64,000 nucleotides of DNA from an uncultured Clostridia bacterium. GTDB taxonomy: Bacteria > Bacillota > Clostridia > Christensenellales > UBA1242. Made by a program: the position numbers and the translations under genes. Every line of letters starts with the position of its first letter. The first letter of the stretch is position 1. The notes beneath the pieces are model-generated. The model was not told where the DNA came from. It worked only from the letters and a program-made list of their open reading frames with translations, and searched no databases. The DNA is taken from NCBI GenBank assembly GCA_944383275.1, contig CALWOV010000001.1, positions 1 through 64,000 on the forward strand, in the 5' to 3' direction. Below are positions 5,804 through 51,031 of the stretch, piece after piece.

Positions 5804-6203
5804 AAAGATAAATATAGTTTTTAAAATATTAATAGCAAATAATATTGTTTAAAGTGTTTATTTAATTTATTAATAATGGGTTTTTCCATATTCACCTATT
5901 TAATAAATAAAATTACAAAAAATCTTAAAATTAAAAACAACTATGCGTAAAAAGTGATATACAAAACTGCATAGTATTAAATTTTTATTAAATAAAATTA
6001 ATAAAAAATATTTTTCATATATATATAAAAATTGATATAAAAAATAAGATTTAATATTCCCCATTTTATTAAACAATAAATTAAAAAATCATATTAGACT
6101 ATATATAATTTATTAAAAATTAAAATTTAATTAATTTTAGTTTTTAAAAAATTTTTGTTATAAGTTTAAAAATCAATTTCAAATAATTAAATTAATAATA
6201 AAT
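5804..6203. other. AT-rich intergenic region
   Basis: About 400 bp without a gene. One inverted repeat, ACTATGC (5940-5946) with GCATAGT (5969-5975), could form a weak hairpin. The remainder is A/T runs; I see no promoter I would defend. Confidence 0.5.
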
Positions 6204-31402: not shown

Positions 31403-32306
31403 TATTTTCTCCTAGATAAACAATTTCAGTTTCCAGCGTTTCACCAAACTTTAGAAAAACTTTTTCTTTAATAATATTAATTAATGTTAAAACATCGTTT
31501 GCAGTTGCATTACCTGTGTTAACAATGTAACCACTGTGAACTTTAGACACCATTGCCCCACCTATACATAAACCTTTAAGCCCAGCCTTATCAACAAGTT
31601 CTGCAGCAGAAAAATTGGGTGTTCGTTTAAAAATACTTCCTGCACTTGCAAATTTTACTTGTTGCGATTTTAACCTTAATTCTATATATTTTTTTTGTTG
31701 TTCTACTATTTCTTCAAAATTTTTAGGCAACAAGTTTAAAGTAACTTTTATTATAACATATTTTTTCTGATTTGTAAAAATACTTTTACGATAATCAAAA
31801 AAAAGATTTTCTTTTTTAAAAACTTTTAACTTATATTTGTCTAGAACTAAAACACTATCAATATAATCTGATATTTGGTTATTAAAAGCACCAGCATTCA
31901 TTACAACGGCACCACCTATTGTTCCCGGAATGTTTATTGCCCATTCTAGACCACCCAAACAGTTTTTTGCGCATAGATTTACAATGTTTACAATTCTTGC
32001 GCCAGCAAATGCTTCAACTTTATTATTTTTAATAAAATTTATTTTGTTAAAGTTTTGCATTGAAATTACAATGCCATTAAAACCGTTATCAGAAACAAGA
32101 AGATTTGACCCTGCCCCTATAATAAAATAATTAATATTAAATTTTGCGCATAGTTTAAGCACGAATATTAGTTCTGATGTTTTATTAACCACAACAAAAT
32201 ATTTTGCTTTTCCTCCAATTTTAAAAGTAGTATGCTTACTCATATCTTCTTCAACTTTAAATCTTGTTTTAAACTTTAAAGTAAGTTTTCTTTCAAAATT
32301 TTTCAT
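31386..32306 (-). CDS. murB: UDP-N-acetylenolpyruvoylglucosamine reductase
   Basis: 306 residues. Second step of peptidoglycan precursor synthesis, NADPH- and FAD-dependent. FAD-binding TTFKIGGKAKYF and FIIGAGSNLLVSDNGFNG; the catalytic Ser in FASAGSIFKRTP; the final Glu in GETLETEIVYLG. Cytosolic. Belongs to the uvrC-murB-PHP-whiA run. Confidence 0.96.
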   Translation of the reverse strand: MKNFERKLTLKFKTRFKVEEDMSKHTTFKIGGKAKYFVVVNKTSELIFVLKLCAKFNINYFIIGAGSNLLVSDNGFNGIVISMQNFNKINFIKNNKVEAFAGARIVNIVNLCAKNCLGGLEWAINIPGTIGGAVVMNAGAFNNQISDYIDSVLVLDKYKLKVFKKENLFFDYRKSIFTNQKKYVIIKVTLNLLPKNFEEIVEQQKKYIELRLKSQQVKFASAGSIFKRTPNFSAAELVDKAGLKGLCIGGAMVSKVHSGYIVNTGNATANDVLTLINIIKEKVFLKFGETLETEIVYLGENNETTN

Positions 32307-46853: not shown

Positions 46854-47435
46854 ATGGCAAAAACTAAGAAAACAGAAAAACAACAAAATGAAAAACAAGT
46901 TGAAGCAAAAGTTCCAGCAAAACGACGAGTTATAGGCTATATAGTTTATGTTACCTGCCTTGCTGGATTGTCTTTAGTGTTTATGCTGCAAATGGGTTTT
47001 ATTGGAGCAACTGACACAAGCACAGCAAACCCACAACCACTAACCTATCAAGAAACAACCACCGATACCGAAAACATTAATAATGGTTTATCAGAAAACA
47101 CTAACAGTGGTTTAGAACAAAATTCAATACAACCAGATAACAATGCTAATAATAATGATATAAATTATAATGCCAACTCTGTTATAAATAATGATATAGA
47201 AAATAATAACGAAACAATTGAAGAAAAACCCGATAACGATATTGTAGAAGAAAATGAAGAAAATAACCAAAACACTGAAGAAAAAAATGATGTTAATAAA
47301 AATAATGAAAATTTATCGAACTCTGAAAGCGATGATTTAAGTGAAAACATTGTTCAAAAAGATTTTATTGATAACCCAGAAAAAGCACTTAATGAAGATA
47401 TAAACAAAACCGAAAATGAAAACTACACGTTATAA
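46854..47435 (+). CDS. Membrane-anchored Asn/Glu-rich protein
   Basis: 193 residues. A basic start (KTKKTEKQQNEK), one membrane segment (GYIVYVTCLAGLSLVFMLQMGFIG, about 38-60), then about 130 residues of low-complexity Asn, Glu, Asp and Thr, presumably outside the cell. Unrecognised; such tails are often spacers in surface proteins. AAAGGAG precedes ATG. The stop codon is one base before a perfect cloverleaf of inverted repeats. Confidence 0.6.
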   Translation: MAKTKKTEKQQNEKQVEAKVPAKRRVIGYIVYVTCLAGLSLVFMLQMGFIGATDTSTANPQPLTYQETTTDTENINNGLSENTNSGLEQNSIQPDNNANNNDINYNANSVINNDIENNNETIEEKPDNDIVEENEENNQNTEEKNDVNKNNENLSNSESDDLSENIVQKDFIDNPEKALNEDINKTENENYTL

Positions 47436-47436
47436 A

Positions 47437-47515
47437 GTAAGGGAAGTAAAAATTTTATAATAATAAAATTTTTAAAAAACTGTCGTTTTTCCGTGTTCCA
47501 CACGGCTTCCCTTAC
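47437..47515. repeat. Perfect four-way-junction inverted-repeat element
   Basis: 79 nt in which every base except three loops can pair. Closing arms GTAAGGGAAG (47437-47446) and CTTCCCTTAC (47506-47515); inside, with no unpaired base between, three hairpins: 12 bp with AATA loop (47447-47474), AAAAAC-TGTC-GTTTTT (47475-47490) and CCGTGT-TCC-ACACGG (47491-47505). It has tRNA size but no T-loop or anticodon features. Either an RNA element in the 3' region of the upstream gene or a mobile DNA element. Confidence 0.8.
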
Positions 47516-47521
47516 TTTGCA
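47462..47521 (+). repeat. 60-bp direct repeat, copy 1
   Basis: Identical over 60 bp to 47632-47691, offset by 170 bp. It covers the right half of the first hairpin, the two other hairpins and the 3' closing arm of the cloverleaf, plus TTTGCA. Confidence 0.9.
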
Positions 47522-47582
47522 TTCGCGTCGCCTCGGTATCATAATTGCAAGCATTATGCTACACTCTTCTTCCTTGAATGTA
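47518..47582. repeat. Nested inverted repeat between the two direct repeats
   Basis: CATTC (47520-47524) with GAATG (47576-47580) encloses GTA-T-CATAAT and ATTATG-C-TAC (47536-47562). The sequence is richer in G+C than its surroundings and has no reading frame. Confidence 0.5.
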
Positions 47583-47631
47583 AACTTCAAACCTTAGTAT
47601 GTTGTAATATGTTATGTTAAAATATATTTAC

Positions 47632-47691
47632 AATAAAATTTTTAAAAAACTGTCGTTTTTCCGTGTTCCACACGGCTTCCCTTACTTTGCA
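47632..47691 (+). repeat. 60-bp direct repeat, copy 2
   Basis: Exact copy of 47462-47521. The 5' closing arm and left half of the first hairpin are not present here, so only two of the three hairpins can form. It looks like a 5'-truncated copy of the cloverleaf element. Confidence 0.9.
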
Positions 47692-47810
47692 GATATAAAT
47701 AATTTTCACTTATCGCATTTTATTTAATCGTTTTTATTTATATTTACATTTTCAATCAGCAAAATAAAATAATAAATTATAGAGAATTACAACTAATATA
47801 AACTATGTGA

Positions 47811-47877
47811 TGTTGTTTTGCTCACGATGTTCGCAAACCAATTTGCTAAACGCAAACCCGTTGTTCCAACGGCAACA
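47811..47877. repeat. Second cloverleaf-like inverted-repeat element
   Basis: TGTTG (47811-47815) pairs with CAACA (47873-47877). Inside are three hairpins: TTTGC/GCAAA (47817-47837), TTTGC-TAAAC-GCAAA (47842-47856) and CCGTTG-TTC-CAACGG (47858-47872), the last directly joined to the closing arm. An outer GATGTT/AACATC pair (47809-47894) is an alternative. Same plan as the first element, including a last hairpin that begins CCGT and has a three-base loop, though sequence differs. Confidence 0.6.
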
Positions 47878-47894
47878 CAGTTTGAATTAACATC

Positions 47895-47946
47895 AGTTTT
47901 GCTTGAATATACACTCGCTTTGCTTCGTGTGCATTCAGACAAAACT
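47895..47946. repeat. Long interrupted hairpin
   Basis: AGTTTTG/CAAAACT, TGAAT/ATTCA and ACAC/GTGT pair in order, separated by symmetric two-base internal loops (47895-47946). It follows the second cloverleaf directly. Confidence 0.6.
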
Positions 47947-48029
47947 TCCGATAATATAAATTAAAGAACAATTTTAAAAACAAATATTTTAAATAGAAAA
48001 TATTAATATATAATTTCAATATTTAAAAA

Positions 48030-48056
48030 TAAAAAAGAGCAATTGCTCTTTTTTAT
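48030..48056 (-). terminator. Terminator of the GLUG protein gene
   Basis: AAAAAGAGC-AATT-GCTCTTTTT (48032-48053), fully palindromic and usable from both sides; it starts at the stop codon of the reverse gene. Confidence 0.85.
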
Positions 48057-51031
48057 TATAAACCTTTTATTGTTGGGTATTGACCATCAATTAATGACCA
48101 GAATTCTGTGCTAAATCCACGGTTAGTGAATGTGCTTGCTTTCTTACAATCATCAGTGCTTGTTCTTCCGTCATCTGGTTGAACTAATTGCCAATTACCT
48201 AATCTGTATGAAGAATATTTTCGTTCAGCATTTCCAGCAAGACTGCTGTCGTAGATTGATGATTTTACATAACCAGCAACTTTACCTTTATTTTCATTAA
48301 ATAAGATACTAAGGTTAGATGCACGAATTTCACTTGATGTCTCACAATACATACTTCCAGAAGATGGAGTGTAAGTTACTGCAGAGAAGCAGTATTCTAC
48401 TGTTGCATAGTTACCGTTTCCAGATGAATCTGTGCTTCCACTGATAACTGATGCAAACCCACTCATTTTCTTACCGTCAAGTTTTGCAAAAGTTGCACTG
48501 TTTGTAATTTTACCACGGTCAATTTTTCCAGCCAAACCACCAATTTCATTACCAAGTAGCGTTACATTAGATTGAACCATAGAACGAGTTACACTTACAA
48601 CATTGTTGTCAGTTGTTGTGCTGTATCCAACAACACCACCTGTCCAATTCGCTTTAACGCTTCCACTTACAGTTTCACAAAGTTCTACTGTTGCATTGTT
48701 GCCCATATTGTATCCAACAATACCACCTGCATAACCTTCTGCTATTGCTGTGTCAATAGAAATTGTTGAACTTGCTTTACTGTTTTCAACACGGTAAAGG
48801 TTAAGACCTGCAATTCCACCAACATTTGCGTGACTTAATGTTCCGGTTACTGAAATTGAAGTATTATCATATCTAGTTGCATTAGAAACTATTGCATTTG
48901 TTTCTGCATTTGAACCAACAATTCCACCAACATTTACATTACCTTCTGTTGCTGATATTGAAATAACTGTTCTACTTTCTACATTGTTAAGTGTTGCATA
49001 GTTGACACCTGCAATTCCACCAACTTCTTTATATGATGAAGATTGAAGTGTAATTGTGCTTGTTGCCGCATTTGTGTTTTCAACCAATCTGTTGTTAACA
49101 CCCGTTACAGTTCCAACATATGTTCCTGCACTTATTGAACCTGTTACTCTACAACCTTGAATTTCACCATTGTTGTATCCAGCAATAATACCAACATTAA
49201 CACCATCACTTATATTTGCGCCTTCAACAATTATTCCATTAATAACACCAGAGTTATATCCAAATAGACCTGCGTAGTTATAGTGGTTAGTTATGTTAAG
49301 ACCTGAAATTATATAGCCATCTGGGTTTAGTAATGAACCAACAAATGGATTTTCTTGTGTTCCAATTGGTTCCCAATCATATCCACTAAGGTCGATATCT
49401 GAAACTAATGTATAAGTTCCATCAAGACGATTTCTTATGTTGTTAAGGTCTGCTGCTGTTGAAATTTCATTACTTATATAGTCTGAATATGGGTCGTAAA
49501 TGCTTAACTCTTCAACTGATGCACCATTTAAAATTAATGTTGGATATCCATCGTTAACATCCGCCGAATAACCCCAAACTTGTTCAAAGTTCCAAGTTGC
49601 TTCTACTTTAACTTTATTATTACCACTTTCTGTGTTATATGTTCTGTATGCTGTGGTTGTTAAACCTTGTGTTAAATCATCTGCTGATAAAACATTGATA
49701 AAGTAGCCTTGTGCAACAGATTGTGCTGTTGAACACCAACCAAGACCAGCATTATTGTTTAATGCATAAACACCAATAATACGGTTTACATTTTCATCAT
49801 CTGTGTCAACAAAGGTTGTTGGTTCTGTTCCGTCTGGGTTTACATTTCTTCCAACAATATAACCTTTTTTAGTTGTATTGTCTGCATCTATTGCAACAGT
49901 TGTGTAACAATTTATAATATTACCTTTAAGGTTTGTTGTGTAATCTTTAATTTCTGCTTGCACTTCTGTTGTTGCAGCGTTTAAACCAACCAAGCCACCA
50001 ATTACAACATTGTTATTTGTGTTTGATGAAACGATTGAACCACGAGCATATGCATTTCTTATTGTAGAACCAAAGTTTGCACCTGCAATTCCACCGACAT
50101 TAGTTGTTACATTTGATGTTGTAACTTCTATATTACCGTTAAATGAAACACGACTTATATTTATGTTTATTGTATCTCTGGTTGTTATACCAACAATACC
50201 ACCCACACCTATTTCATAAGATGGAGATGTTGCAAAAGTTGAATTATTTGTTAAAACTGCATTTGTAACATTAATTCTTTCTATTGTTCCTTTATTTTGC
50301 CCTGCAACTGTTCCCATCATATTTGCTGGTGCTGTTATGTTCACTGTGTCTATGTTCAAGTTACTAACTTGCGCGCCTGTTGCAACATATCCAAACAAAC
50401 CAGCAACAACTTGGTTAGATGTGTTGTTTATAGTTAAATTATAAATGTAATTATAATCACCGTTGTATGAACCAGTGAAAGCATTGCCTTCAGTTGTTCC
50501 AATTGGTGTCCAATTTTCGTAATCTTTAAGGTCAATGTTGTTAATCTGTTTATAGTGAGCACTTAAAGGACGACTTTCAGATTTACCAATGCTTGCTAGC
50601 TCTGCAGCATTTCTGATAACAAAAGGATTTTCTTTTGTTCCATCTGCAATAGTTACTGTGCAATATTGACCGTTAAATTTATCACGGTTAGAAAGCAAAG
50701 TAACTTGTGTTGAAACTGCACTTTCAGCAACGGCTTTAAAAACATAATCTTTTCCACCGTCTTTATTATCATTTTCAGAAATCATTTCTAGTGCAGAATT
50801 ATCATAGTTTAATTCCCAAGATGTTCCACCCTCTTTATTCTGGTGAATTACCGAAAGAGTAAACTCATCACCTATGTTTAAACTTTCAAGATTTTTGTTT
50901 AATAACAAGGTTTCATTATCACGCAAAAAGTAAAAAATAGTAAGCCCAAAACAAAGCGCAACAATAATAACAAGTAAAAAAATCATAAAACGCTTAAACC
51001 ATACTGATGAAGAAGCACTTACTGAACTCAT
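48056..51031 (-). CDS. Large membrane-anchored GLUG-repeat surface protein
   Basis: 991 residues. One N-terminal membrane anchor (FMIFLLVIIVALCFGLTIFYF, about 14-34; no lipobox), a short Ig-like stretch, then two long blocks of GLUG-type repeats. Each block is introduced by a sentence-like motif (ADLNNIRNRLDGTYTLVSDI, DLSGYDWEPIGT, NPFVGS) and contains many GGIVG/GGIAG/AGLFGY units predicted to form a right-handed beta-helix. Such proteins occur on surfaces of gut Firmicutes as adhesins or enzymes; no catalytic residues are recognised. AAGGAG precedes ATG. Confidence 0.8.
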   Translation of the reverse strand: MSSVSASSSVWFKRFMIFLLVIIVALCFGLTIFYFLRDNETLLLNKNLESLNIGDEFTLSVIHQNKEGGTSWELNYDNSALEMISENDNKDGGKDYVFKAVAESAVSTQVTLLSNRDKFNGQYCTVTIADGTKENPFVIRNAAELASIGKSESRPLSAHYKQINNIDLKDYENWTPIGTTEGNAFTGSYNGDYNYIYNLTINNTSNQVVAGLFGYVATGAQVSNLNIDTVNITAPANMMGTVAGQNKGTIERINVTNAVLTNNSTFATSPSYEIGVGGIVGITTRDTININISRVSFNGNIEVTTSNVTTNVGGIAGANFGSTIRNAYARGSIVSSNTNNNVVIGGLVGLNAATTEVQAEIKDYTTNLKGNIINCYTTVAIDADNTTKKGYIVGRNVNPDGTEPTTFVDTDDENVNRIIGVYALNNNAGLGWCSTAQSVAQGYFINVLSADDLTQGLTTTAYRTYNTESGNNKVKVEATWNFEQVWGYSADVNDGYPTLILNGASVEELSIYDPYSDYISNEISTAADLNNIRNRLDGTYTLVSDIDLSGYDWEPIGTQENPFVGSLLNPDGYIISGLNITNHYNYAGLFGYNSGVINGIIVEGANISDGVNVGIIAGYNNGEIQGCRVTGSISAGTYVGTVTGVNNRLVENTNAATSTITLQSSSYKEVGGIAGVNYATLNNVESRTVISISATEGNVNVGGIVGSNAETNAIVSNATRYDNTSISVTGTLSHANVGGIAGLNLYRVENSKASSTISIDTAIAEGYAGGIVGYNMGNNATVELCETVSGSVKANWTGGVVGYSTTTDNNVVSVTRSMVQSNVTLLGNEIGGLAGKIDRGKITNSATFAKLDGKKMSGFASVISGSTDSSGNGNYATVEYCFSAVTYTPSSGSMYCETSSEIRASNLSILFNENKGKVAGYVKSSIYDSSLAGNAERKYSSYRLGNWQLVQPDDGRTSTDDCKKASTFTNRGFSTEFWSLIDGQYPTIKGL

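Follow-up and report, generated by a model that had tools for sequence, protein, structure and literature searches.

A four-way junction in a Clostridia genome belongs to a family of gene-less foldable repeat units that resemble single-strand recombination sites

The attP1 and attP2 sequences of CTXphi carry two dif-like strands in inverted order (PMC4246890). In CTXphi attP(+), as in the IMEX, these inverted sites become double-stranded only once one strand folds, and a single crossover takes place with a short homology beside the cleavage point (PMC4246890). The units described here are predicted to be similar in both respects; unlike CTXphi and the IMEX, they have no phage or replication genes, measure ~150 nt in all, and occupy many degenerate sites (core TAATATAAATTA) instead of the host dif, the probable host dif being another palindrome. 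The attC sites of integrons and CALIN offer a further likeness: head-to-tail arrays of folded sites with a conserved core and an unpaired centre, whose variable terminal structure is kept by covariation, structure being conserved more than sequence. In contrast to these, our sites are not separated by cassette genes, each unit being a site in its own right, copies are dispersed to many loci, and the core RYYYAAC/GTTRRRY is absent (the unit joint reads CTTCCGATAATATAAACTATG and the internal site GTTTGAATnAACATCAG); an integron integrase was not found among the two tyrosine recombinases that were typed, neither of which reaches the integron-integrase cut-off.

Bacterial dif sites, those of XerCD, XerS and XerH, share an 11-6-11-like layout with the units, but the units are multi-copy and mobile, and their outer arm is free to change while it pairs. 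The IS200/IS605-derived REPIN/RAYT and PATE are likewise short, gene-less, foldable and dispersed, with neither terminal inverted repeats nor target-site duplications (leads: PMC3116915, PMC8266576), whereas our units have a larger branched fold, a two-sided target core and tandem arrays, and most of their hosts have no Y1 transposase. No description of the family was found in Rfam or in the papers searched, a literature that leaves out most subscription journals.

The junction and the units around it

The window, by which we mean the whole 64,000-nt stretch of DNA analysed, contains at 47437-47515 a segment whose minimum-free-energy fold consists of a 10-bp closing stem and hairpins of 12, 6 and 6 bp, with no unpaired base at the junction point and 4 + 4 + 3 = 11 loop bases. 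The fold has an energy of -28.8 kcal/mol, whereas shuffled sequences average -9.1 (z -7.8; 0 of 200 shuffles), and the perfect 79-nt four-way junction of the original prediction was thus reproduced exactly. The pairs of its 10-bp closing stem exist, but the stem (P1) is longer, 13 bp, joining 47434-47446 with 47506-47518 at 100% complementarity; nor does the structure start one base after a stop codon, as had been stated, since the left arm of P1, from 47434, overlaps the TAA stop (47433-47435) of a 193-aa ORF (46854-47435). When 447 kb of the source genome (G000) were scanned on both strands for any stem of at least 9 bp enclosing three hairpins, as few as 11 unpaired bases were seen only in 47437-47515 and in L030 528-614, a relative with entirely different stem sequences. 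Because the scan gave only one other equally complete structure, the junction is not a product of chance; scan and shuffles agree with the earlier expectation on this point.

The 79 nt of the junction form the left part of a larger repeat unit of 148 nt, w474 (47434-47581). Two further members lie in the same intergenic region: a copy that is truncated (47616-47691) and another complete unit, younger and of like layout, w478 (47797-47957; Table 1). w474 aligns over its full length with L003 and L004, on other contigs of the source genome, at 78% identity; the match reaches past the 79 nt, to about 47590, and the ends of w474 are the counterparts of TATAAAC and CTTCCGATAATAT in the larger family. 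The truncated copy has lost the P1 5' arm; it keeps hairpins 2 and 3 and the P1 3' arm. The units lie between the 3' ends of the 193-aa gene and of a convergent gene (48056-51031, minus strand) whose 991-aa product is anchored in the membrane and has many repeats of the GGI(A/V)G type.

Table 1. Coordinates of the units and their parts in the window, and of the palindrome near the XerS-like gene.
Feature	Position	Strand	Remarks
Complete unit w474, older subfamily	47431..47581	+	host-like TAT 47431-47433, element proper 47434-47581, end CTTCCTTGAA-TGT
w474 P1 5' arm AAAGTAAGGGAAG of the junction's closing stem; at the XerD-arm position if read as dif-like	47434..47446	+	
w474 hairpin 1, 12 bp, loop AATA	47447..47474	+	
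w474 hairpin 2, 6 bp, loop TGTC	47475..47490	+	
w474 hairpin 3, 6 bp, loop TTC	47491..47505	+	
w474 P1 3' arm CTTCCCTTACTTT, start of internal inverted second site	47506..47518	+	complementarity to 5' arm
w474 P2 hairpin GGTATCATAAT..ATTATGCTAC, second structural domain	47535..47562	+	same position as P2 of other units
w474 right end CTTCCTTGAA-TGT, left half of dif-like joint	47569..47581	+	
Truncated second junction copy	47616..47691	+	92% identity over 76 nt
Complete unit w478, of a young subfamily	47797..47957	+	~20 complete copies in G000, 95-99% identity
w478 P1 5' arm AAACTATGTGATGTTG	47800..47815	+	
w478 P1 3' arm and internal inverted site CAACACAGTTTGAATTAACATCAG	47873..47896	+	
w478 P2 hairpin AGTTTTG-CT-TGAAT...ATTCA-GA-CAAAACT	47895..47946	+	
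w478 right end CTTCCGATAATAT	47945..47957	+	
Palindrome near XerS-like gene	L269 4615; L123 3295; L125 1525; L126 29; L128 221; L129 3133; L134 504; L137 541; L138 2996; L141 2859; L143 2553; L144 944		

Conservation of the fold and spread of the family

Comparison of copies gave fixed ends, TATAAAC(T)ATG on the left and CTTCCGATAATAT on the right (unit ends TATAAACTATG and CTTCCGATAATAT). Between them, each unit of ~150 nt carries P1 with three abutting hairpins, a conserved internal CATCAG segment (GT[TA]TG[AT]ATnA[AC]CATCAG) and a second hairpin, P2, with no gene and no terminal repeat. When P1 arms were swapped between units, pairing was far poorer than that of the cognate arms (z -7.5; 78 distinct arm pairs), the cognate pairs including TGTGATG/CATCACA, AAGCGGTG/CACCGC, TGTGGCG/CGCCACA and ATCGGAAGT/ACTTCCGA as well as GTAAGGGAAG/CTTCCCTTAC in the window. 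Two-sided changes were present in 13 of the 16 predicted pairs of a 24-unit alignment and in 18 of the 22 pairs of the four named helices, a score reached by 0 of 500 shuffles and far above that of slid structures. The fold is thus kept by selection through compensatory mutation, and the compensatory changes that the original prediction had proposed to look for in relatives are there. Only 13 of 468 paired cells are G-U, 8 of the 13 at one end pair; because such pairs are rare, the balance would lean towards DNA rather than RNA as the folded molecule.

Right ends (16 nt, one mismatch allowed) were counted in the source genome and 119 relatives, where reversed-pattern controls gave 0-1 per genome. 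The source genome has 47, G062 26, G015 15, and G060 and G078 8 each; the remaining relatives have at most 2 each, and all eight other genomes of the source genome's genus have none. Besides its copies in the source genome, w478 has 22 matches in G015, and most close relatives of the source genome have none. In the GTDB species set, the two-unit joint turned up at 46 loci in ~30 Clostridia MAGs, Ca. Onthoplasma (Christensenellales) among them. The earlier suggestion to search for other copies was therefore productive at each level, with a 92% partial copy and 78% copies in the genome and a family in ~30 MAGs. A looser joint pattern had no match in IMG/VR contigs, and a viral carrier for the units was rejected on that ground.

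Many loci are head-to-tail arrays with a period of about 138-158 nt, and others are single units; array neighbours often differ in junction type or P2 type, as if modules had been exchanged between them. The patchy spread and the high identity within genomes suggest the behaviour of a mobile element, and we are nearly certain that the units make up one widespread family that is gene-less, foldable and mobile. Contigs that start or end less than ~100 nt from a unit include C11, C13, C18, C20, C23, C24, C27 and C28 of the source genome and, within about the same distance, C5, C6, C14, C16 and C25 of G062. With so many contigs ending beside units, arrays evidently break assemblies and the copy numbers are underestimates; the family accounts for recurrent assembly breaks in small-genome gut Clostridia. 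In MAGs labelled Eubacteriaceae, the arrays of L174, L181 and L188 share the joint CTTCCGATAATATAAACTATGAG and differ in their inner hairpins, a second architecture between the same ends.

Insertion sites and likeness to dif

Single copies sit at TAA-TAT^AAA-TTA (^ marks the insertion or crossover point). When host flanks were taken without assuming the boundary trinucleotide TAT, TAA preceded the units and TAT-AAA-TTA followed them, the same core as that of the element on both sides; the element's own joint reads ATAA-TATAAA-CTATG. Since flanks and joint share this core, the host bases are constrained on both sides of the crossover (target core TAATATAAATTA). No target duplication is evident at the host flanks, and the sequences agree with crossover at a single point inside TAT^AAAC. 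A base-exact empty site was not found at L182/L224 or between G015 and G077, where sequences are too diverged. At L182 (4316-4699) and L224, in two genomes, the right flank of the array is shared, and left flanks and unit numbers differ.

The experimentally confirmed B. subtilis dif is ACTTCCTAGAATATATATTATGTAAACT (PMC3025954). The joint of two units matches it at 21 of 28 positions and is the best dif match among the ~300 windows of a unit in 107 of 110 units, a score that 2000 Markov controls never reached. The internal stretch of one subtype, reversed (CTGATGGTTATACATACTATGTGATG), aligns by eye with the joint, ungapped, at 19 of 26 positions, and each unit thus holds two dif-like strands in inverted order. 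When 108 units were folded with DNA energies, each as a single-stranded circle, P1 formed in 92, and the right-end GAT paired with the internal-site ATC in 46, under half, with the centre left open. From these folds, the two inverted dif-like sites are predicted to form a double-stranded site when one strand folds.

Candidate enzymes, rival explanations and a proposed mechanism

The only tyrosine recombinase found in the source genome, whose assembly is ~90% complete, is a 460-aa integrase at C2:19063. The host lineage has a single XerS-like recombinase, encoded in G015 at L152 1117-2208, which scores 185 bits with its best NCBIfam model, XerS, where the cut-off is 267. Near its gene about a dozen genomes of the order carry a perfect or near-perfect palindrome, CTAT[TG]CG[TC]AAAA-N6-TTTT[AG]CG[AC]ATAG, which is very probably the chromosome dimer resolution site (dif) of these bacteria. 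All that it has in common with the element is the outer ACTATG-G. Because the probable host dif is this different palindrome, a hijack of the host Xer/dif by the units gains no support, and we rejected the element as a copy of the host dif, the palindrome differing from the joint. A B. subtilis-type dif, with up to 3 mismatches allowed, is absent from 60 relatives, and there is no canonical dif in 1.08 Mb of G077.

No Y1 transposase was found in G014, G015, G060, G062, G067, G068, G078, G083, G119, G120, G121 or G124, among which G015, G060, G062 and G078 are element-rich and further genomes were reached through loci; G033 and G123 have one. TnpB was not found in the source genome. A dead IS200-type Y1 gene with three stops (L037 16007-17247; G000:C2:115000-116250) lies in the source genome, on the same strand as a two-unit array and upstream of it.

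These observations bear on the original suggestion of mobile DNA with a foldable end, as in IS200/IS605. Its general part is borne out, the units being foldable and, from their dispersed, tandem and patchy occurrence, fixed ends and compensatory change, mobile; the attribution to IS200/IS605 is not. A non-autonomous element of that kind (PATE/REPIN), excised as a folded top strand by a Y1 HUH enzyme in trans and inserted 3' of TAATAT, would account for the lack of terminal inverted repeats and of evident target duplication, the hairpins near both ends, the single crossover point, a right end that repeats the target TAATAT, and the dead Y1 gene ~600 nt from one array. Yet the left ends of IS200/IS605 elements carry a guide sequence 5' of the foot of the subterminal hairpin, and here P1 begins ~3 nt from the left boundary, without room for one. 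IS200/IS605 targets have no need of constrained bases 3' of the insertion point, whereas the host bases are constrained there too (AAA-TTA). With Y1 missing from most element-rich genomes (the four above together with G119, G120, G121 and G124), and no TnpB in the source genome, we consider this origin unlikely. Another rolling-circle HUH system, a plasmid Rep or a relaxase, could nick the single-stranded linker between P2 and P1 (GATAATAT^AAAC), spread the unit and yield tandem arrays; in the linear fold the joint stays unpaired and links two hairpins, arrays run head to tail, and G015 has a gene (L150) that appears relaxase-like from its sequence. Such a system would leave the inverted dif-like internal strand and the two-sided target core unexplained, and seems to us quite unlikely.

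Strong covariation would suit RNA as well as single-stranded DNA, and a structured RNA, either a cis-acting 3' UTR or a small RNA, might have spread as a repeat with its function in the transcript. However, the unpaired bases at the insertion boundaries are among the most conserved, G-U pairs are few, the gene neighbours of the units are unrelated, and Rfam gave no match at gathering score, only mir-19 far below its own; we regard this as very unlikely. The particular form first proposed, a 3'-UTR RNA of the Asn/Glu-rich gene, finds no support, because in dozens of genomes the structure adjoins genes that are unrelated, and the stop merely overlaps its left end. An ordinary MITE of a DDE transposase would also be short, gene-less and dispersed, but the ends of the units are not mutual inverted repeats (AAACTATGTGATG versus ATATTATCGGAAG), no target duplication is evident, and a DDE transposase has no need of structural covariation, which makes this origin highly improbable.

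A tyrosine recombinase is the best fit to the two-sided target core and the dif-like joint, with a rolling-circle HUH enzyme as the main rival, and we see an even chance that the family moves as folded single-stranded DNA by such a putative enzyme. A single strand of the unit, perhaps in the form of a small circle, would fold; joint and internal strand would pair into a double-stranded dif-like site with an unpaired centre, capped by the four-way junction on one side and by the P2 hairpin on the other. Exchange of one strand with a double-stranded target whose core is similar, TAATATAAATTA, would then be the work of a tyrosine recombinase in trans, by analogy with the integron integrase at attC and XerC at CTXphi attP(+), and insertions would stack into arrays because every joint rebuilds a target. 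We give even odds to the reading in which the whole ~150-nt gene-less element is a foldable recombination site and the four-way junction caps one of its arms. More tentatively, and with some doubt, we propose minimal mobile elements that consist of the folded recombination site alone: ~150-nt gene-less single-stranded circles, a host- or ICE-borne tyrosine recombinase, one-strand exchange, cassette-less attC-like arrays and swaps of hairpin modules.

If single-strand recombination holds, attC and CTXphi attP(+) would not be isolated inventions, and a folded site alone would be a mobile element. The family would then also provide a natural set of foldable recombination sites from many species, with compensatory change, from which the structural rules of single-strand recombination could be read directly.

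Half of the XerS-side palindrome also occurs by itself. In five genomes of the genus, the motif AACTAT[TG]CG[TC]AAAA immediately precedes the XerS-like gene; the promoter motif AACTATGCGTAAAA of that gene was rejected as a full dif, only one arm being conserved. Isolated half-sites of this form are present in the window at 5939-5952 (plus strand) and ~32142-32155 (minus strand), and at L039 9656 (plus), L042 9925 (plus) and L028 (minus); those at window 5939 and L039 are followed ~20 nt later by CTGCATAGTAT.
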